From: Methylacidiphilum caldifontis
GTDB taxonomy: Bacteria; Verrucomicrobiota; Verrucomicrobiia; Methylacidiphilales; CAMAQI01
NCBI GenBank assembly: GCA_945877805.1
Contig: CAMCSM010000011.1
Coordinates: 1 to 45,088, forward strand
Length of the DNA stretch: 45,088 nt
Reading direction: 5' to 3'
The translations under genes and the position numbers were made by a program. Below, one piece after another: positions 16,822 through 26,053 of the stretch; the first letter of the stretch is position 1, and each line of letters starts with the position of its first letter. The notes beneath the pieces were generated by a model. The model saw nothing but the letters and a program-made list of their open reading frames with translations, did not search any database and was not told the origin of the DNA.

Positions 16822-16958
16822 TTTTTTCACCGCGGAGTAAACGGAGGACAACGGAGGAAATACTGGTTTTTATAAGGAACGAGAAATTGGAATTAGTTTT
16901 ATTTTGAAAAAAGAACCAAGTTTTCCTCCGTTACCCTCTGTTTACTCTGTGGTAAAAA
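16822..16958. repeat. Long imperfect inverted repeat (ACCACAGAG type)
   Basis: The left arm (16822-16860) runs from TTTTTTCACCGCGGAGTAAA to ACGGAGGAAA. The right arm (16921-16958) is its imperfect complement, reading TTTTTACCACAGAGTAAAC on the other strand; the arms match at about 80 percent around a 60-nt loop. It lies between convergent genes and could form a large hairpin acting as a bidirectional terminator. The decamer CTTAAGTTGA follows at 16977. The remaining sequence of the 248-bp gap shows no gene. Confidence 0.7.
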
Positions 16959-17054: not shown

Positions 17055-18080
17055 TTATTTCTGATTCACCTGAATCACTGAATCAGAAGGAGCGACCGTA
17101 TTCTTTTGATAAACGGCAGGAAGCAATGTCGGACGCTCCTGAACAAGAATCTTAAAAGTCATCGTTTTCCCCTCACGCATCACCACTACAGGAAGATCTT
17201 CACCCACTCGACTAAAAAAAGAGAGATCGATCACATCCGAAGGGCGACGAATCTCCCGACTCCCAATCTTTAAAACCAAATCCCCAACCTTGATGCCACT
17301 CGTTAAGGCCGGGGTGTTTTCAAATAAATTCGAGACGATCACCCCTTTTGTCGTTGCTGAGGTCTCCTTCTCAGAAACCCCTACCCCCACCCATCCATGA
17401 AGCGCCTTCCCCGATTGCATCAACTCTTGATAAATACGCTGAACGGCTGCCGAGGGAATCGCATAACAGGCACGCCCATTATCCGCCGACATCGACAATA
17501 CTCCCACAACCTCCCCTTTTGAATTAATTAAAGGACCTCCCACCTGACCGGGACTGATCGGAAGATTCGCTCGAATATGGGTCGTCGGAAAAAACTTATT
17601 TAAATACTGAAAATCAAATCCGGCCACCAATCCAAAACTCGGCGCCACAGGAAGATTATACGGATACCCCACCCCCACCACCGCTGAGGCCGCCTTTAAA
17701 TGATTCGCAGAGGCAAAAACCAACGGCTTTGATTTCATCCCATAAACCTTTAATAAAGCCAAACCACTCCTTAAATCCTTCCCCAAAACCCGAGCCTCCC
17801 ATTGCTTATCCTCACTCTCTACCGTCGTTGCCGTATCATCGACAACGATTAAAGAACTCGTTAAAAGGGTCCCCTCTTGATCAATAAAAAATCCAGAACC
17901 GGTCAACATCATGACCCCGTTATCTGATTTTACCTTAACGACGGATTCCTTAACCCGTTCAAAAACATCGTTAACCTCTTTTCCAATCGAATCAAAAACC
18001 CCTTGTGCATTCATCGTTCCATTCGCACAGAAAACAAAAGCGAGGAAGAACAATAAACGAGTTTTAAATAAATCGATCAT
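17055..18080 (-). CDS. DegS/DegP-like exported pseudoprotease with PDZ domain
   Basis: A 341-residue periplasmic protein with a signal peptide (TRLLFFLAFVFCANG, likely cut near MNA-QG), a trypsin-like HtrA domain (about 35-215) and one PDZ domain (about 228-320; WVGVGVSEKE, IVSNLFENTPALTSGIKVGD). The HtrA fold is clear (SGFFIDQEGTLLT, GLALLKV, GGPLINSKGEVVG), but each catalytic position is changed: His to Leu77 in TSSLIVV (normally TNAHVV), Asp to Gly106 in RSGLALL (normally RTDLALL), Ser to Val180 in PGQVGGPL (normally PGNSGGPL). It is therefore predicted to lack protease activity. It follows a sigma factor and presumed anti-sigma gene, the position of a DegS partner, so it may bind peptides or the anti-sigma factor rather than cleave. 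Confidence 0.88.
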   Translation of the reverse strand: MIDLFKTRLLFFLAFVFCANGTMNAQGVFDSIGKEVNDVFERVKESVVKVKSDNGVMMLTGSGFFIDQEGTLLTSSLIVVDDTATTVESEDKQWEARVLGKDLRSGLALLKVYGMKSKPLVFASANHLKAASAVVGVGYPYNLPVAPSFGLVAGFDFQYLNKFFPTTHIRANLPISPGQVGGPLINSKGEVVGVLSMSADNGRACYAIPSAAVQRIYQELMQSGKALHGWVGVGVSEKETSATTKGVIVSNLFENTPALTSGIKVGDLVLKIGSREIRRPSDVIDLSFFSRVGEDLPVVVMREGKTMTFKILVQERPTLLPAVYQKNTVAPSDSVIQVNQK

Positions 18081-18082
18081 GC

Positions 18083-18580
18083 TTAGAACGCGACAACCGA
18101 ATCGTAGGCCGCAGGAGTTGTGTTCATCACATACTGTGTTCGTTCTGAACCGATCTCGGCTAAAGACAAAGCGGCAAGTTCAACAGGACGTGCCAAGGAA
18201 CCCGCTCCAAGAGAGTCGATCCCATTGGAAGTTAAATATTGCTCCGGAAACAAAGAGGAATTCAGTTGAGCCCCCTCCCCACGATACCAGTTGACCAAAG
18301 AAGTAGAATTTGAATTCCAAGACTGATTCAATCCATTCAATGTAAAAAATAAAAGTACCAAAGAAAAAGCAGAGGCTTGAACTAAACGAGCAGGATTAAA
18401 AAACCAAAGATCTTTTAATGACTCCGTGAGACGGAACGCTAAACTCTTAGAGACAAGCTGCTGATTGCGTTGTCGTGAGTGGAACTCAGACAAGACCCCT
18501 GAAAAATAAGAATCGGAAGGAACTTCGTCACGAAGTCCCGCAAGAGCTTTTTGAACCTTATCGATATTCTCCATACTCAT
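18083..18580 (-). CDS. Putative membrane-anchored anti-sigma factor
   Basis: A 165-residue protein with one membrane helix at about 66-83 (LVQASAFSLVLLFFTLNGL), a cytoplasmic N-terminal part rich in helices (IDKVQKALAGLRDEV) and a periplasmic C-terminal half. The start overlaps the sigma gene stop (TCATGA region) and the next gene begins 2 bp after its stop. No HxxxCxxC zinc-binding motif is present, so it is not a ZAS-type anti-sigma factor. The assignment rests on topology and position between an ECF sigma factor and an HtrA-like protein, as in rpoE-rseA-degS-type systems. No family is recognised from sequence alone. Confidence 0.6.
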   Translation of the reverse strand: MSMENIDKVQKALAGLRDEVPSDSYFSGVLSEFHSRQRNQQLVSKSLAFRLTESLKDLWFFNPARLVQASAFSLVLLFFTLNGLNQSWNSNSTSLVNWYRGEGAQLNSSLFPEQYLTSNGIDSLGAGSLARPVELAALSLAEIGSERTQYVMNTTPAAYDSVVAF

Positions 18581-19176
18581 GATCTATCTCCCTTTTTCAC
18601 ATCGAACAAGTAATTTTTTAACTGTTTGTGGGCATAATGTAAACGGGATCTCACCGTTCCATCCGAGCACCCTAAAATCTTAGCAATCTCAGCGTGACTC
18701 AACCCTTGGATATCAAACAAGTTGACGACTGTTCTATGATCTTCAGACAACTTAGAAAGGGAGACGTTCAATTTATTTTGCAATTCAGAGCGATTTTCTT
18801 GGAGCTCAACCTCATTCACCACCCCCTCATCGATAATATCAAAATCCCCCTCCTCATTCGCATGGATACTCATTTCACGATTACTCTTCCGTAAACGAAT
18901 GAAATTCAACGATCGATTCACCGCAATTCGATAAAGCCAGGTATGAAAACCGGAATCCCCTTTAAAACCGGAGAGGTTATCATGCGCCTTTATAAGTGTC
19001 TGATAAAGAACATCTTCCGTATCGTGATGATGCCGAATAATCTGAAAAATGACACTATACAATCTTTTTTGATAACGAATGACTAAGAGATCAAAAGCCC
19101 TCGACTCCCCTGACTGGGCTCTTTTAACCAAGGAGAGATCACTCGGTTCAATTGAGTCAGTCTGATTGGAATCCAT
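18577..19176 (-). CDS. ECF-type RNA polymerase sigma factor
   Basis: Group 4 sigma-70 factor of about 199 residues. Region 2 covers about 15-90 (AFDLLVIRYQKRLYSVIF, DTEDVLYQTLIKAHDNLSGF, FHTWLYRIAVNRSLNFIR). Region 4 covers about 140-190 (LSEDHRTVVNLFDIQGLSH, AEIAKILGCSDGTVRSRLHYAH), a clear HTH. An acidic linker lies between. ATG 19176 is chosen; a TTG start at 19215 is possible, and GGAGG lies 17 bases before the ATG, farther than ideal. First gene of a three-gene operon with a membrane anti-sigma candidate and an HtrA-like pseudoprotease, which suggests control by an envelope signal. The 204-bp upstream gap holds no recognised gene. Confidence 0.9.
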   Translation of the reverse strand: MDSNQTDSIEPSDLSLVKRAQSGESRAFDLLVIRYQKRLYSVIFQIIRHHHDTEDVLYQTLIKAHDNLSGFKGDSGFHTWLYRIAVNRSLNFIRLRKSNREMSIHANEEGDFDIIDEGVVNEVELQENRSELQNKLNVSLSKLSEDHRTVVNLFDIQGLSHAEIAKILGCSDGTVRSRLHYAHKQLKNYLFDVKKGDRS

Positions 19177-19380
19177 AACTGAGTATGAATTAACCTCCTC
19201 AGCCCTCAGGTGCAATCCTTATTTGCCATTGCATCTTGATTTTTCGGGACGTTCCATCGGGCTTCGTCGAATCCCAAAGGATCTAAACCACTCACCTTCA
19301 CCGCATGTAACTTATAAATTAAAGTGGGTAAGGCATGCCCATTTTTAAACTCTGAAGCAGAAATAGCCCATAATCAGATC

Positions 19381-20652
19381 TTAGTGAGAAAAATGAGATT
19401 CTTTCATCGCAAAATCGATTTTTCGAGCGACCCATTCGACCGTTTTTTCGGGTAGATGGGCGGCATGAAGATAATCCCGCGAACGTGAAAGAGGCTCAGC
19501 AACTTCCTCGTAAAGAACTTTGCATTGAACGTTTGTTAGTCCGGCGAGAGTCCCTTCTTGGAGGAGGTTTTTTGCAGAAATATTTTTGATCACTCCCGCA
19601 ATCGACATGGAGTGTTGAGGAAGATGGTTTAATCCTCCTTCGTCAGAAAAAGTAAGGTCATAAGCAGGAGAAAGTTCCCATTTCCTTCCATCGAAGAGAA
19701 AGGAGTGATTTTTCCCATGATCGTCCGCATTACAACTAAGAACATTAAAGACCATCCTTCGAAAAACTTCTTTAACCTCTTGTAGGCTCCCGGAGAGTTG
19801 GTGAGCTACCTCAAATAAGTTTCGATAGGTCAGATTTTCTGATCCAGGAGTGATCCCGGTTAATGCCGACAAGGTCGCCAAGTGAATTCTTTTTCCACAC
19901 TTAAGATCAAAGCGTCTTGATGCAAAGTGGGAGATTACTTCAGACGAATGAGTCGATGGGATGAGTCGTGCTTCCGGAACTCGAATTCCCGAGGCTTTTG
20001 CCATTTGATGATAGGCATATTCGATGTTGGGGTAGTTGTTTAAGCTTTTTCTCTGTTCAGAAAGTGAGCCGAATTTAAGAACCCATCGCTCTTTTTCTAG
20101 TCCGACTGAGGGATGATCTTCATAAAATAATCCAGTTGCCCAATCTATAGCTAATAATGCCTTAGGAAATCTCCCTCCCGCAGTTCTTGCCGCCCTTCTT
20201 AAACGATGAATCCATTCTTCCGCCGTTTGGGCGATGTTTGAGGAGGCTAATCGTTCTTGCTCACGAAGATCGAATTGTTGAAGTTTTTCCACAGGATAGG
20301 ATTGTCCGGGTCGATAAATCAAAGCACCCAATCCCGTTTCTCCGACGTAAGTAAGTTTATCGATAGCTGTTGGACGATAAAGAGGACCATTTTCTCTTTC
20401 AAACCATCGATTCATGACGACGGACCCATACCCATCCGGGAGCGAGTCAGAAAAAAGAGGTGCTACGAGAGAAAAATCAGGATCATCAAAAAGATAGGGA
20501 GATTCTCTTTTGACCATCGACAGCGGGGAAAGATCAATTTTTGTTCGAAGAAAATCCGCATTGTAATGAAAAAGGGTTTCATTTATCCCGTCGAAAATCT
20601 CCCCGACAAGCAAATCGTGATAGTAAACTTCAATGCTTCTAATCCCTTTCAT
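19381..20652 (-). CDS. hipA: HipA-type serine/threonine kinase toxin
   Basis: Full-length 423-residue HipA homologue. In E. coli HipA phosphorylates glutamyl-tRNA synthetase, arresting translation and promoting persistence. The N-terminal HipA domain contains FSDSLPDGYGSVVMNRWF and YVGETGLGALIYRPG. The kinase part has the glycine-rich RFPKALLAID, then WVLKFGS, the catalytic loop NADDHGKNHSFL near residue 308 and the metal-binding SPAYDLT near 330. All key kinase residues look intact, so the toxin is probably active. The start forms a TAATG overlap with the upstream hipB stop, the usual antitoxin-first order. The target here is not known. Confidence 0.92.
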   Translation of the reverse strand: MKGIRSIEVYYHDLLVGEIFDGINETLFHYNADFLRTKIDLSPLSMVKRESPYLFDDPDFSLVAPLFSDSLPDGYGSVVMNRWFERENGPLYRPTAIDKLTYVGETGLGALIYRPGQSYPVEKLQQFDLREQERLASSNIAQTAEEWIHRLRRAARTAGGRFPKALLAIDWATGLFYEDHPSVGLEKERWVLKFGSLSEQRKSLNNYPNIEYAYHQMAKASGIRVPEARLIPSTHSSEVISHFASRRFDLKCGKRIHLATLSALTGITPGSENLTYRNLFEVAHQLSGSLQEVKEVFRRMVFNVLSCNADDHGKNHSFLFDGRKWELSPAYDLTFSDEGGLNHLPQHSMSIAGVIKNISAKNLLQEGTLAGLTNVQCKVLYEEVAEPLSRSRDYLHAAHLPEKTVEWVARKIDFAMKESHFSH

Positions 20653-20936
20653 TATGAAGCTCTTTTCCGAACCGGTTGTTTTGCTCGTTTAAACTCTTCA
20701 ACCGAACGATAATCCGATTTTTTTTCAAGAATTTGAAAGAGTACTGATCCTTGCCCTAAAGCGATCAAAGCATTCACAAGAGTCCTTGTGCTTCCGAATC
20801 CCGTTTGCTCAAACGTTTGATAGGTTCGCAGACTGACATTGCAACATTCTGCTAAATTTTGCTGGGTCAAATTCAAATTTAAGCGTTCCGTTCTAATTCG
20901 AGACCCGAGTGTCTGAAGTGCTGATCCTGCTTGCAT
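20652..20936 (-). CDS. hipB: HipB-type XRE-family antitoxin
   Basis: A 94-residue DNA-binding antitoxin. A Cro/CI helix-turn-helix spans about residues 10-65 (LGSRIRTERLNLNLTQQNLA, ECCNVSLRTYQTFEQ), followed by a basic tail (KRAKQPVRKRAS). It should bind HipA to neutralise it and repress the operon through boxes in the upstream AT-rich region. It overlaps hipA by one base (TAATG), so the two are translated together. Confidence 0.9.
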   Translation of the reverse strand: MQAGSALQTLGSRIRTERLNLNLTQQNLAECCNVSLRTYQTFEQTGFGSTRTLVNALIALGQGSVLFQILEKKSDYRSVEEFKRAKQPVRKRAS

Positions 20937-21159: not shown

Positions 21160-23553
21160 TTATTGAGAAACGAGAGGAATAATATCTGGCCTCAAAGGGG
21201 TTCCATCGGGAAGAAGAATGCGAGGAGTCACGAAGATCAATAAATTCTTCTTCGTCGTCTTCACCGCCTTTGATCGAAACGCGGCGCCAATCACCGGAAG
21301 ATCTCCAAGGAACGGGATTTTATCTTCGACCTTTTGAACCTCATCTCGTGTTAATCCACCCAAAACGAAGGTATATTTGTCCTGCACCGTCACGCGAGTG
21401 TTAATCCTTCGATTATTAAACACCGGTTGATTAATCGTATTGTCACTAAACAAGGCCGTATTTCCAGTCCCATCGACAAGATTAACCGCCTCGCCATAGT
21501 TTACAAATCCTTCAAAATCAACGATATCCGGGGAAAGTGCTAGCTCAATCGAGGTTTTATCCGCAGGGACTTGCGGTTGAACTTCAAGTTTAACCCCGAC
21601 ATCCTTCGCCTCAAAGGCATTTGGAAATGCAGGAACAAAGACTGCCGGAGGAACAATAACGACATTTCCCTGCGTTACTGCTGAAACGGCAGTTGCCTTC
21701 GGCTTATCAAATCCGGTAGGATAGAACATTCTCCTCGAATTATTAATTATGGCCTTAGATCCTGCTTTTACTCGTATGGATGGGGAGGCTAAGAAATCGG
21801 AACTCTTCTTCTGAGCAATCGCCGTCAATATACTCTGTAGCTCACTTCCCGTTAAACCAGAAACTCCCAATTTAAAGGCATTCGGGGTCGCCAATCCTGT
21901 CGATCCTCCGGTAATGATATTGTCTAATCCATTAATTCTAAAGCCTTGCGACCCTCTTAAACCGGTATTGATCGCTGGGGTACGGCCAAAGGTCTGAAGA
22001 GTTGAGTTTTGCTGTTCCCCGATGCTCGCCAAGGAGGCGATCCGCTGGGCAAGTGCCACATCTTTGAGCTTGAAGTTAATGTTATTTGAAATTTCATCCA
22101 AATCAGTTTGGCCGATCTCAACCACTTTCACCGAGACATCAACGACTAAAGACTGTCCACTATCAGCATTAACGAGCTCCTCAATCAAATCGATCTGATC
22201 TTGAGTATTGGTAATCGTTAAGGTTCCTTGTGTTGGAGAATAAACGGCAGTCGAACCGGGAGGAAAATCAACCCCTTTTTCCCGAAGCTGATTCATCGCC
22301 TCCGCATTCCCTCCCCCTTCAGCAACCGTCGTGGTTGTCGAAACTCGTCTTGGGGCAGCACCTCCCCCCGCCTTATCGTCAGCGCCGGCAGAGGTGGTGG
22401 TATTAATAAAGGTTGGAGAGATATTGAAGATCCGGGTAATCAAGACCGTTTCTGGAGCAGAGAGCGGAATAATGACAATCGCAAATTCCTCCACTTTGAA
22501 TTTTACGGAGGAGACCCGACAGACATATCGAAGTGCCTCTCCCAATGGGATATTTTTGAGGGAAAGATCGACCAGTTTTGCCGATTTCTTTGCCTCCTCT
22601 TGAACAATAATCTGAATTCCTTTTTTATCCTTTTTATCAAGCTCTTTGCTCTTCGAAGACAAGAAATTTGTGGCATCGATAATCGAAGCCCCTTTAAAAT
22701 TAAGATCTGGTACCATGATGGTTTTTAATTTTTCATTGATTCCAAATTTATTTGATTTGACGAGCACGACTTGCCCCATCTCCTCTGTTTTCCCTTCGAT
22801 CTTCTTCTTTGGCTTAGCGGCCCATTTCTCTTCTGTCTCTAATAGCCGTTTTTCCCGAGTCTGTTCCCGAGCCACCAGAAAATACTTTTCTTTTTCTTCA
22901 TTTACTTTGTCGATCTGTCCCAAAGCGCTCTTATTATAAGGATCAACGGTTAATGCTTTCTTTAAAACAGTCAACGCTTCATCATATTGTCCAGTTCTTT
23001 GGTATTGCTCAGAAACTTGCAAGAGATCTTCGACTGTTTTCAAACTTTCTAAAAACTTTGGAGTTAACGCAGGATTCACTATGTCCCCTGCAATCCCCGG
23101 ATTATTTGCAGCAAGTTTCACCTTTTTCAACAGTTTTTCAACCGAATCGTTTCCAGGGGAGGCCGATTCGGCCTCTTCAAGAAGTTTCTGAGCCTCCTCC
23201 CACTTTTGCGCATTAAGGGCGAGCTTTGATAATTCATAATTCACTCGGGAAAGACCCTCCCCTGCTACTGCAACAACCGATTCCGTTTCCTGTGATTTCT
23301 GTAAATTCGAATAAGCAAAACGAAAACGCTCTTGAGCCGTTGAATAGTCCCCTAAAGCCTCCGCCTTCTCCCCCTCTTCAATTGCTTTTTGTGAACGAAA
23401 AACGAGTTCCTGACGACGAACAACCTCTACCGCTTGAGCCCGTTCATCTGCCGACGGTGGGACTACTGCCGTGACGACTGGAGTATCCTCGTGGGCAACG
23501 CTAAAGGAAAGCGAGAGAAGAAATAATAGTGAGAAGAAATTTTTGTTTTTCAT
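21160..23553 (-). CDS. Secretin-like outer membrane protein of a pilus-like system (Amuc_1098 family), second copy
   Basis: A 797-residue exported protein with signal peptide (FFSLLFLLSLSFSVA). The N-terminal third has TPR-like helices (ALGDYSTAQERFRFAYSNL, RTGQYDEALTVLKKALTVDP). It is followed by a short N-domain (LKNIPLGEALRYVCRVSSVK) and a C-terminal secretin barrel with the lip signature KIPFLGDLPVIGAAF and the end KKNLLIFVTPRILLP. It should form a multimeric outer-membrane pore for the pilus-like apparatus. It is paralogous to the gene just upstream, 7 bp away, sharing domain order and matching TPR blocks. Akkermansia is known for one such secretin here; two in tandem suggests duplication and perhaps a mixed or alternative channel. 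Last gene of the operon. Confidence 0.87.
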   Translation of the reverse strand: MKNKNFFSLLFLLSLSFSVAHEDTPVVTAVVPPSADERAQAVEVVRRQELVFRSQKAIEEGEKAEALGDYSTAQERFRFAYSNLQKSQETESVVAVAGEGLSRVNYELSKLALNAQKWEEAQKLLEEAESASPGNDSVEKLLKKVKLAANNPGIAGDIVNPALTPKFLESLKTVEDLLQVSEQYQRTGQYDEALTVLKKALTVDPYNKSALGQIDKVNEEKEKYFLVAREQTREKRLLETEEKWAAKPKKKIEGKTEEMGQVVLVKSNKFGINEKLKTIMVPDLNFKGASIIDATNFLSSKSKELDKKDKKGIQIIVQEEAKKSAKLVDLSLKNIPLGEALRYVCRVSSVKFKVEEFAIVIIPLSAPETVLITRIFNISPTFINTTTSAGADDKAGGGAAPRRVSTTTTVAEGGGNAEAMNQLREKGVDFPPGSTAVYSPTQGTLTITNTQDQIDLIEELVNADSGQSLVVDVSVKVVEIGQTDLDEISNNINFKLKDVALAQRIASLASIGEQQNSTLQTFGRTPAINTGLRGSQGFRINGLDNIITGGSTGLATPNAFKLGVSGLTGSELQSILTAIAQKKSSDFLASPSIRVKAGSKAIINNSRRMFYPTGFDKPKATAVSAVTQGNVVIVPPAVFVPAFPNAFEAKDVGVKLEVQPQVPADKTSIELALSPDIVDFEGFVNYGEAVNLVDGTGNTALFSDNTINQPVFNNRRINTRVTVQDKYTFVLGGLTRDEVQKVEDKIPFLGDLPVIGAAFRSKAVKTTKKNLLIFVTPRILLPDGTPLRPDIIPLVSQ

Positions 23554-23560
23554 AAATCAA

Positions 23561-26053
23561 TTACCTCGTTGCATTGTTGCTGGTCATCTCTACGGAATCA
23601 TCAGCGATTTCATAAAAAGGTTTGCCCTTTGAATTCACGAGCCGTGCGGTTAAAAAAAGCATCAGATTCTTCTTCACACTCTTATCCACTTCACTTCGGA
23701 ATAGTCGTCCCAAATAAGGGAGATCGCCTAAAAGGGGGATCTTGTCGTTCACCTTCTGTCTATCCTCACGAATAAACCCCCCCATCACAACCGTTTGGCC
23801 ATTCATCACCGTTGTATCGGTCGTTAGTTTGCGGGTATTAAAGACAGGCTGATTCAGAATTCCACTCGTTAAACTTCCAATAGCTCTACTTTCGGATGAG
23901 CCCTGACGAATAGGCGATCCGTAGTTGATAAAACCTTCAAAATCTTTAACCTCCTGATCGAGCTTAATATCGATTCGTTGGTCAGGATAAGTGGTGGGGG
24001 TTACCGAGAGATTCACCCCAATATTTTCGGTCTTAAAATCACTCGGCGTTGCTGGAATCGGAACGGTCACGGTTGTAGTATTATATCTATATGCCGTTGT
24101 CGAAACTTCCGGGCTTTCGTAGGCACTCGGATATTTCATCTCTCTTCCGACCTCAATCTTTGCGGCAGTACGATTCCGGGTGACTATTTTCGGAGAGAGG
24201 AGAGTATCTACTCCTGTGACCTGATCAATGGCTCTCAAAAGCATTCCAACGGCATGTCCATCCAAATTAAAAGCAGCACTCAAAACATTAGGGGTCTGCG
24301 GATAAATCACCCCTGCAGTCGAGGAAGTAAAGGGGTAGACGCTCAATAGAGAATCTAATTGATTCTGGCTTAATCCTCCATAGACGGTACTTTGCGCTGT
24401 CGGAAACTGACCTGTCGAGGAGTTGCTTTTTCCATCGCGAAGACCAGTGCTTCCTAATAATGATTGTGAGGAAACATTTCCAGCTCCCGTATTAAAGGCA
24501 GCACCCCCATTTCTCAATAGATTTAAACGAGAATTACTGACGCCAACAATGTAATTAAAACTCAGTTCCTTTAAGGCATCATCAGTAAATTCAACCATTC
24601 GAACCTCGAGCTCGACTTGCGCTTCCTCTTTCAGAGCCACCGCATCAATCAAACCTTGAATGACATCGAGTTGATCTTGCGTATTCTTAACCACCATTTT
24701 ACTTTGAGTCGCTAAGAAAATCGCTTTCGATTGTTCTGAGGTAAAGGAGACCCCTTTATCGGTTAAATCTTTCTTCACATCAATCGCCCCCCCTTTGGAG
24801 TTCGCTGTCGAGGTGAGAAAATTCGCAGGAACCGAATAAGTTCTTGTTGAAAGAGTTGTGGCATCATCGCTTTGGGGTAACAAAACAATCGCATAATCAT
24901 CAATCTGTGTTTTTAAACCTGTGGTTGTATTAATAAATCGGAGAACCTCGCTTAAAGGAAGATTACTCAGGGTAATGGTGACCGGAGGGATTTTGTTCGG
25001 CTTTGCGGGAGCTGCTGCAGCAGCAGGCTTTGTCCCTGCGACCGCTAATGTCGGGGCAACAATGCCGCCTTGTTTCAAAACAAAATTCACCCCTTCGCCA
25101 GTCGGATCAGATTCACGACTTTTAACCGTTAAAAAAGTCACCACATCCTCAATCGGAGCCTCATTAAAGGAGATCTCTTTAATCATGATCTCCTCTAATT
25201 TCTTTCGCATCTTCGCAACATTGGAGACCGCTGAATTCAAATCAACCGGACGTGAGGAAAGGAGATTCTCTAGTAAAACCGGTTCGCTCCAACGCTCGTT
25301 TACTTGATTCATTGCCTCTTTTCGGGAACTTTCACGAGAAAGTTTTGCAAACTCCATCTGCTTTTTCTGAAGTTCCATCAAACGGGTTCTGGCAAGTTTG
25401 TTATATTTATCGACTGCAAGCACTCTCTCGTATCGATTTCTTGCCGCATCGTATTGTCCTGTTTCACGAAGACGATCGGCTTCATAAACGAGCTTTTCGA
25501 CTTGAAGAATATTCTCTTTAAATATTGGGGTAATCGCAGGATTTCCCTCGATTCCATCCACTCTCTTTTTCTGATCACCAAGTTTACTGTAAACCCGATT
25601 AAATTCTTTTTCAGAATTATAAATTCCACGATTATCGGGAGATAATTTTCGAGCCTCTTGAATAAGCCCTTTGGCTTTTTCATATTCTTTCGCACTTAAT
25701 GCATCATCGGCCTGCATCACCTTAATCTGAGAGATCCCCAACCGGGCGCTTTCAAATTGAGGACGATAAGTAGGAACATTACGCACGATAAATTCATATT
25801 TTTCTAAAGCCTTATTAAACTCCCGAGCCTCGGCAAGTCGCTCTGCCTCATGGAGGGCTTCATTGTATTGGAAATCACGGTCTTGACGTTTTCCTGCCTC
25901 TTCATCTGCTTTAACCACTGAGGGATCTGATGGATTGACTTGATTCGTTTCAATCACGGGAACTGGGGTTCCCTCAGCCTGAGAAAAGATCTCTTGAACA
26001 GCAAATAATAGTAATCCCATCGTTAACATCAAAGAAAAATTAGAATGCTTCAT
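23561..26053 (-). CDS. Secretin-like outer membrane protein of a pilus-like system (Amuc_1098 family), first copy
   Basis: An 830-residue exported secretin. The signal peptide (LMLTMGLLLFAVQEIFSQA) is followed by TPR-like helices (AREFNKALEKYEFIVRNVP, ETGQYDAARNRYERVLAVD), an N-domain (LSNLPLSEVLRFINTTTGLK), a glycine/serine-rich stretch, and the secretin core with KIPLLGDLPYLGRLFRSEVD and KKNLMLFLTARLV near the C-terminus. An alanine/proline-rich linker lies near residues 335-350. It probably builds the outer-membrane gate of the filament or export complex encoded upstream. The 69-bp gap before it is the largest within this operon and could contain an internal start signal. Confidence 0.88.
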   Translation of the reverse strand: MKHSNFSLMLTMGLLLFAVQEIFSQAEGTPVPVIETNQVNPSDPSVVKADEEAGKRQDRDFQYNEALHEAERLAEAREFNKALEKYEFIVRNVPTYRPQFESARLGISQIKVMQADDALSAKEYEKAKGLIQEARKLSPDNRGIYNSEKEFNRVYSKLGDQKKRVDGIEGNPAITPIFKENILQVEKLVYEADRLRETGQYDAARNRYERVLAVDKYNKLARTRLMELQKKQMEFAKLSRESSRKEAMNQVNERWSEPVLLENLLSSRPVDLNSAVSNVAKMRKKLEEIMIKEISFNEAPIEDVVTFLTVKSRESDPTGEGVNFVLKQGGIVAPTLAVAGTKPAAAAAPAKPNKIPPVTITLSNLPLSEVLRFINTTTGLKTQIDDYAIVLLPQSDDATTLSTRTYSVPANFLTSTANSKGGAIDVKKDLTDKGVSFTSEQSKAIFLATQSKMVVKNTQDQLDVIQGLIDAVALKEEAQVELEVRMVEFTDDALKELSFNYIVGVSNSRLNLLRNGGAAFNTGAGNVSSQSLLGSTGLRDGKSNSSTGQFPTAQSTVYGGLSQNQLDSLLSVYPFTSSTAGVIYPQTPNVLSAAFNLDGHAVGMLLRAIDQVTGVDTLLSPKIVTRNRTAAKIEVGREMKYPSAYESPEVSTTAYRYNTTTVTVPIPATPSDFKTENIGVNLSVTPTTYPDQRIDIKLDQEVKDFEGFINYGSPIRQGSSESRAIGSLTSGILNQPVFNTRKLTTDTTVMNGQTVVMGGFIREDRQKVNDKIPLLGDLPYLGRLFRSEVDKSVKKNLMLFLTARLVNSKGKPFYEIADDSVEMTSNNATR

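Follow-up and report, generated by a model that had tools for sequence, protein, structure and literature searches.

What can a protein with the fold of DegS and none of its catalytic residues do in an operon with a sigma factor? The window (the whole stretch of 45,088 nucleotides analysed here) raises this question, since an earlier note on its sequence had pointed out an HtrA/DegS-like protein in which all three catalytic residues are replaced and had proposed that it holds or releases a neighbouring anti-sigma factor by binding. The features needed to address it, all on the minus strand and given in window coordinates, are the following:

17055-18080, minus strand: inactive ("dead") HtrA/DegS-like protein of 341 aa made up of a signal or anchor helix at the N-terminus, a trypsin-like domain and a single PDZ domain (frame open from ATG; Pfam, DegS alignment, AlphaFold2, Foldseek)
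17436-17909, minus strand: its trypsin-like domain, ~aa 58-215, with the triad lost (DegS alignment, family counts)
17850-17852, 17763-17765 and 17541-17543, minus strand: the former triad sites L77, G106 and V180, respectively (DegS alignment, family counts)
17127-17417, minus strand: its PDZ domain, ~aa 222-318, with the conserved ligand loop G229-W230-V231-G232-V233 (Pfam; loop counts in 115 members; comparison with AlgW W281/L282/V284, PMC8545111)
18083-18580, minus strand: single-pass membrane anti-sigma factor of 165 aa, assigned by homology (zf-HC2 in orthologues; membrane helix in the model)
18086-18133, minus strand: conserved C-terminal tail of the anti-sigma factor, YVMNTTPAAYDSVVAF, the proposed PDZ ligand (F or Y end in 78/78 orthologues)
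18577-19215, minus strand: RpoE-like ECF sigma factor of 212 aa from TTG (TIGR02937, Pfam)

The assignment of the dead protein to the HtrA (Do/Deg) fold family, a trypsin-like domain followed by a PDZ domain, was supported by Pfam (Trypsin_2, E 2e-17, and PDZ_2, E 1e-11, both above cut-off and with no other domain match), by an AlphaFold2 monomer model computed from 25 natural homologues, which predicts the HtrA fold (pLDDT 85, pTM 0.80), and by Foldseek, for which the best matches of this model were DegQ, DegP and DegS. A sequence search of the PDB likewise retrieved DegP, DegQ, DegS and AlgW. The His-Asp-Ser triad that characterizes HtrA serine proteases is, in turn, missing. In the sequence alignment with E. 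coli DegS, the catalytic His, Asp and Ser, which we take to be H96, D126 and S201 in DegS numbering, correspond to L77, G106 and V180. The model and the alignment, both of which the earlier note had proposed as checks, thus bear out its reading of the fold and of the three replaced positions, with sequence alignment and monomer models as the basis of these structural statements. The coordinates it gave are likewise correct.

The loss of the triad extends far beyond this genome. In an order that named records (Methylacidiphilum, Methylacidimicrobium, 'subdivision 6') identify as Methylacidiphilales-like, we found an orthologue in 58 of 60 genomes, 37–50% identical outside the genus. All of them lack the triad, the Asp site being always Gly, the Ser site I, V or L, and the His site various. 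A profile search across the class Verrucomicrobiae recovered more distant members, and neither His nor Asp was kept in any of the 48 class members. In the final family set of 115 non-identical members, H-D-S was found in none and His or Asp in none; Ser was kept in just six, each without His and Asp, and one member from another class of the phylum carries D-N-N at the three sites. The surveyed genomes are mostly draft or metagenome-assembled, with uncertain gene starts. Other HtrAs from the same phylum have H-D-S in 29 of 29 cases, and H, D and S are all intact in a DegP-like paralogue encoded by the genome of the window.

Could the missing triad simply reflect a local sequence error or a decaying gene? 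Beyond the missing triad itself, nothing further speaks for this explanation, which we regard as refuted. The earlier note had warned that a normal triad in close relatives would betray such an error; the two same-genus orthologues (95% and 85% identical) have the same L/G/V, and these identical substitutions, together with class-wide conservation and dN/dS, rule a sequencing error out. The reading frames are open, and in three same-genus genomes the dN/dS of the dead HtrA gene is only 0.084–0.098 (Nei-Gojobori); between the window and its more distant same-genus relative, the values are 0.057 for the protease domain, 0.061 for the PDZ domain and 0.092 for the sigma factor. In a tree of 94 HtrA domains (unrooted, quick search, no bootstrap, the three catalytic columns omitted), a single branch (SH-aLRT 99) sets all 67 dead proteins apart; most parsimoniously, the triad was lost once. 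Judging from these sequence comparisons, the loss is old and common to the family, and the gene is under strong purifying selection; the note had supposed selection from the open frame and preserved fold.

Another explanation would be that the protein is a cryptic enzyme that still catalyses through other residues, e.g., H168, which, like several residues around it, is conserved among the dead proteins but not among active HtrAs. We consider this very improbable. H168, the sole candidate His, is present in 91 of the 115 members and replaced by Y, L or other residues in the remaining 24, so that it was rejected as a new catalytic residue; moreover, the Asn of the oxyanion loop has become Q or E. 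A search among the conserved residues of the 115 members for a replacement catalytic set found none invariant enough, with no invariant Ser, Cys or Asp partners, which also answers the concern that intact His, Asp and Ser might stand elsewhere in the fold. H168 belongs to a family-specific motif, GFDxxYLNRFFxTTHIR (aa 154–170, window 17571-17621), located just before the former Ser loop and strongly conserved (H168 in 91/115, R170 in 99/115) in this family, not so in active HtrAs. It is a possible binding surface.

The genes upstream provide the context for a non-catalytic role. The sigma factor scores 102.3 bits against the ECF model TIGR02937 (cut-off 42.9) and 139.6 against the RpoE equivalog TIGR02939, below its cut-off of 236.15; the ATG at 19176 may be its actual start codon. 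The ATG of the membrane protein gene overlaps the sigma stop codon, and 2 nt separate the end of its own stop codon from the start codon of the HtrA gene. The neighbours at 18577-19215 and 18083-18580 are therefore as first described, an ECF sigma factor and a single-pass membrane protein, and the survey of this neighbourhood that had been suggested found the order sigma factor, membrane protein, dead HtrA conserved over the class, as one operon in almost all loci. Nearly all loci of the order, and 47 of the 48 in the class, have an RpoE-like sigma gene directly upstream, the sole exception in the class starting near a contig end; the gene in between encodes a small single-pass membrane protein. 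The window membrane protein itself has no family match; four orthologues in the same position reach the Pfam cut-off for zf-HC2, the domain of zinc-finger anti-sigma factors, and by homology we regard it as the anti-sigma factor. In its predicted structure, helices in the cytoplasm and one in the membrane are joined by a disordered tail in the periplasm, the latter modelled with low confidence. In two loci (L121, L038) the anti-sigma gene seemed to be fused to neighbouring genes, but the long frames there are overlapping reading frames and the fusions were discarded. An RpoE-type promoter motif sought upstream of the sigma gene showed no convincing enrichment over shuffled sequences, and autoregulation thus gains no support from a common motif.

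Other elements surround this operon in the window. The ABC-F gene and the dead HtrA gene are convergent, and an imperfect inverted repeat (16824-16958) with 48-nt arms, 79% complementary and 39 nt apart, lies between them. Its core, GGAGGACAACGGAGGAAA, has ~11 copies in the genome with at most one mismatch (0 for the reversed control), so that it is a dispersed REP/MITE-like element. At 19381-20936 (minus strand), a HipA-like kinase of 423 aa (HipA_C, Couple_hipA) and an upstream HTH protein of 94 aa, whose genes overlap by one base, form a HipBA-type toxin-antitoxin pair. Further on, 21160-26053 (minus strand) encodes two tandem secretin-like proteins (797 and 830 aa); each matches Amuc_1098, a type IV pilus family, with E <1e-149, yet scores below the curated cut-off.

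A new observation concerns the C-terminus of the anti-sigma factor. The last residue is aromatic in all 78 non-redundant loci (<80% identity), with 71 F and 7 Y, and terminates a conserved stretch of 16 residues (~YVLxxxPVSY[DE]xx[VLF]xF) that follows a variable linker. As controls, the C-termini of other proteins at the same loci end in F in 0/78 sigma factors and 0/76 dead HtrAs. The tail resembles the C-terminus of outer-membrane proteins (OMPs): the Omp85 proteins of these bacteria are F-ended in 18 of 20 cases, and FDVGYQF is the C-terminus of the BamA-like protein encoded by the genome of the window. OMP C-termini are the classic ligand of the PDZ domains of DegS and AlgW, which bind Phe-ended tails; in AlgW, the last residue is held by W281, L282 and V284 (PMC8545111). 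In the dead HtrA, W230-V231-G232-V233 corresponds to this AlgW ligand loop, with W in 104/115 and G232 in 111/115 members, the loop being degenerate in about one-tenth of them. The conserved aromatic, OMP-like tail thus lends support to the earlier note's suggestion of a contact between PDZ domain and anti-sigma factor, for which it is a candidate ligand in sequence terms.

Do the aromatic tail and the dead HtrA occur together? Class genomes without dead HtrA mostly still have the sigma and anti-sigma genes, and tblastn detected no dead HtrA remnants at the loci scored as lacking it. Among the loci placed on the sigma tree, 83 of the 84 with an adjacent dead HtrA have an aromatic tail, versus 17 of the 44 without one. 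In several lineages without it, the final Phe is gone and the PVSY stretch is kept (PVSYKE in L265, AVNYEKPSK in L273, PVNFEKK in L248), and the single non-aromatic tail accompanied by an HtrA (L236) ends in Met beside a degenerate dead HtrA whose PDZ loop is unalignable. Because these counts share ancestry, we used the sigma tree for correction. It requires about seven changes of HtrA presence, and the tail follows HtrA in about three of six independent pairs, never in the opposite direction and with no difference in the rest; a sign test over these independent pairs was not significant. In addition, Phe tails are kept with no dead HtrA beside the operon in family f20 and in loci L235 and L274, so the tail may have another reader. 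With the non-significant test and the f20 tails taken together, the link between tail and dead HtrA is suggestive, though unproved.

Two anti-sigma families deserve separate mention. In family f11 (L220, L221, L249, L255, L256, L236), a far more degenerate dead HtrA (profile scores 55–99) is encoded downstream of the sigma operon, and the anti-sigma factor is Phe-ended in five of the six loci despite this degeneration. In family f20 (L224, L226-L229, L232, L257, L258, L262-L264, L266, L267, L269), the anti-sigma factors are longer (~270–300 aa) and end in ...KF, RF or QF (also ...IKF), with no neighbouring dead HtrA.

The exceptions above give some weight to an alternative in which the reader of the tail is an intact HtrA, the RseP PDZ domains or the machinery for OMP assembly, and the dead HtrA serves as an OMP chaperone in the periplasm and simply happens to be encoded in the same operon. 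The ...IKF tails of f20, the similarity between the tail and the signal at OMP C-termini, and the fact that inactive HtrA variants can act as chaperones (PMC11642142) all fit this explanation. We nevertheless judge it improbable, given the unequal distribution of aromatic tails between loci with and without an adjacent dead HtrA and the decay of the Phe where the preceding motif stays.

We find it rather probable that sigma factor, membrane anti-sigma factor and dead DegS form an envelope-stress module, in which the dead protein would be the non-catalytic PDZ partner of the anti-sigma tail and would control the stress response by binding, not cutting.

How such a module might work can be sketched as follows. 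The PDZ domain of the periplasmic dead HtrA would dock on the Phe with which the anti-sigma factor ends, and the docked protein would shield the anti-sigma factor as RseB shields RseA. When OMP assembly fails, Phe-ended OMP tails would compete for the PDZ domain and the guard would leave. An active site-1 protease, either an intact HtrA of the genome or another enzyme, could then cut the anti-sigma factor, and an RseP-type M50 protease would finish the cleavage and free the sigma factor. The genome of the window encodes three intact HtrAs and an RseP-like M50 protease as candidates for these cuts. The dead HtrA would then sense stress through binding and competition in place of cutting. That it is a guard as opposed to an activator has, in our view, a little less than an even chance. 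The full proposal, namely that the C-terminus of the anti-sigma factor mimics an OMP and is recognized by the PDZ domain of the dead DegS, that stress is perceived as real OMP tails competing with the mimic, and that the DegS fold has become a receptor or shield and is no longer the site-1 protease, is a tentative one, somewhat more open to doubt than to belief.

The main rival to a shielding role assigns the dead HtrA the opposite effect, as an adaptor or allosteric subunit that joins active HtrA oligomers or hands the anti-sigma factor over to them, so that cleavage is promoted. HtrAs form trimers, the same genome has the three intact HtrAs mentioned above, and MamO, which promotes MamE-dependent proteolysis (PMC4794232), provides a precedent. 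However, the genes of the intact HtrAs lie elsewhere, with no link between any of them and the operon, and we consider this adaptor role unlikely, although less so than that of a chaperone sharing the operon.

HtrA pseudoproteases (MamO) and the DegS, AlgW and RseB pathways are already known. In the open-access literature searched, we found no paper on this operon or on a dead DegS of Verrucomicrobia, and none that reports a sigma operon containing a dead DegS or an anti-sigma factor whose tail is OMP-like. If the proposal is true, a whole class would operate the best-studied envelope-stress switch, in which DegS cuts RseA, through binding, and the anti-sigma factor would bear a copy of the OMP signal. 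For pseudoprotease biology this would be an ancient and widely retained bacterial example that already comes with a candidate ligand, and Verrucomicrobiota would acquire a candidate pathway for envelope stress.

Among known systems, the module resembles those of DegS (E. coli, RpoE-RseA) and AlgW (P. aeruginosa, AlgU-MucA) in the HtrA fold with one PDZ domain, in the RpoE-type sigma and membrane anti-sigma factors, and in the PDZ loop for Phe-ended tails, which the dead HtrA keeps. It differs in that the HtrA lacks all three catalytic residues and is encoded inside the sigma operon, and in that the anti-sigma factor is itself Phe-ended and OMP-like, whereas RseA and MucA are not so described in the literature searched. 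The dead HtrA is not an ordinary DegS, as it scores 109.6 bits against the curated model TIGR02038, below the cut-off of 422.95. A MucD-type HtrA is encoded with algU-mucA, which likewise places an HtrA in a sigma/anti-sigma operon; MucD, however, is an intact protease and the window protein is dead. RseB and MucB share with it the periplasmic location, the lack of catalysis, the third position in a sigma/anti-sigma operon and the proposed protection of the anti-sigma factor, but their fold is unrelated; the dead HtrA matches Trypsin_2 and PDZ only, and RseB (PF03888) was not detected in 17 verrucomicrobial genomes, including that of the window, with a positive E. coli control. MamO, the magnetosome HtrA pseudoprotease, is similar in having kept a regulatory role; it binds metal, sits in magnetosome islands and promotes MamE proteolysis (PMC4794232), and the dead HtrA does not belong to its family (35.4 bits versus an NCBIfam cut-off of 800). 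Because of its position in the operon and its missing catalysis, the dead HtrA may, by analogy, act more like RseB, as a guard, or MamO, as an adaptor, than like DegS.
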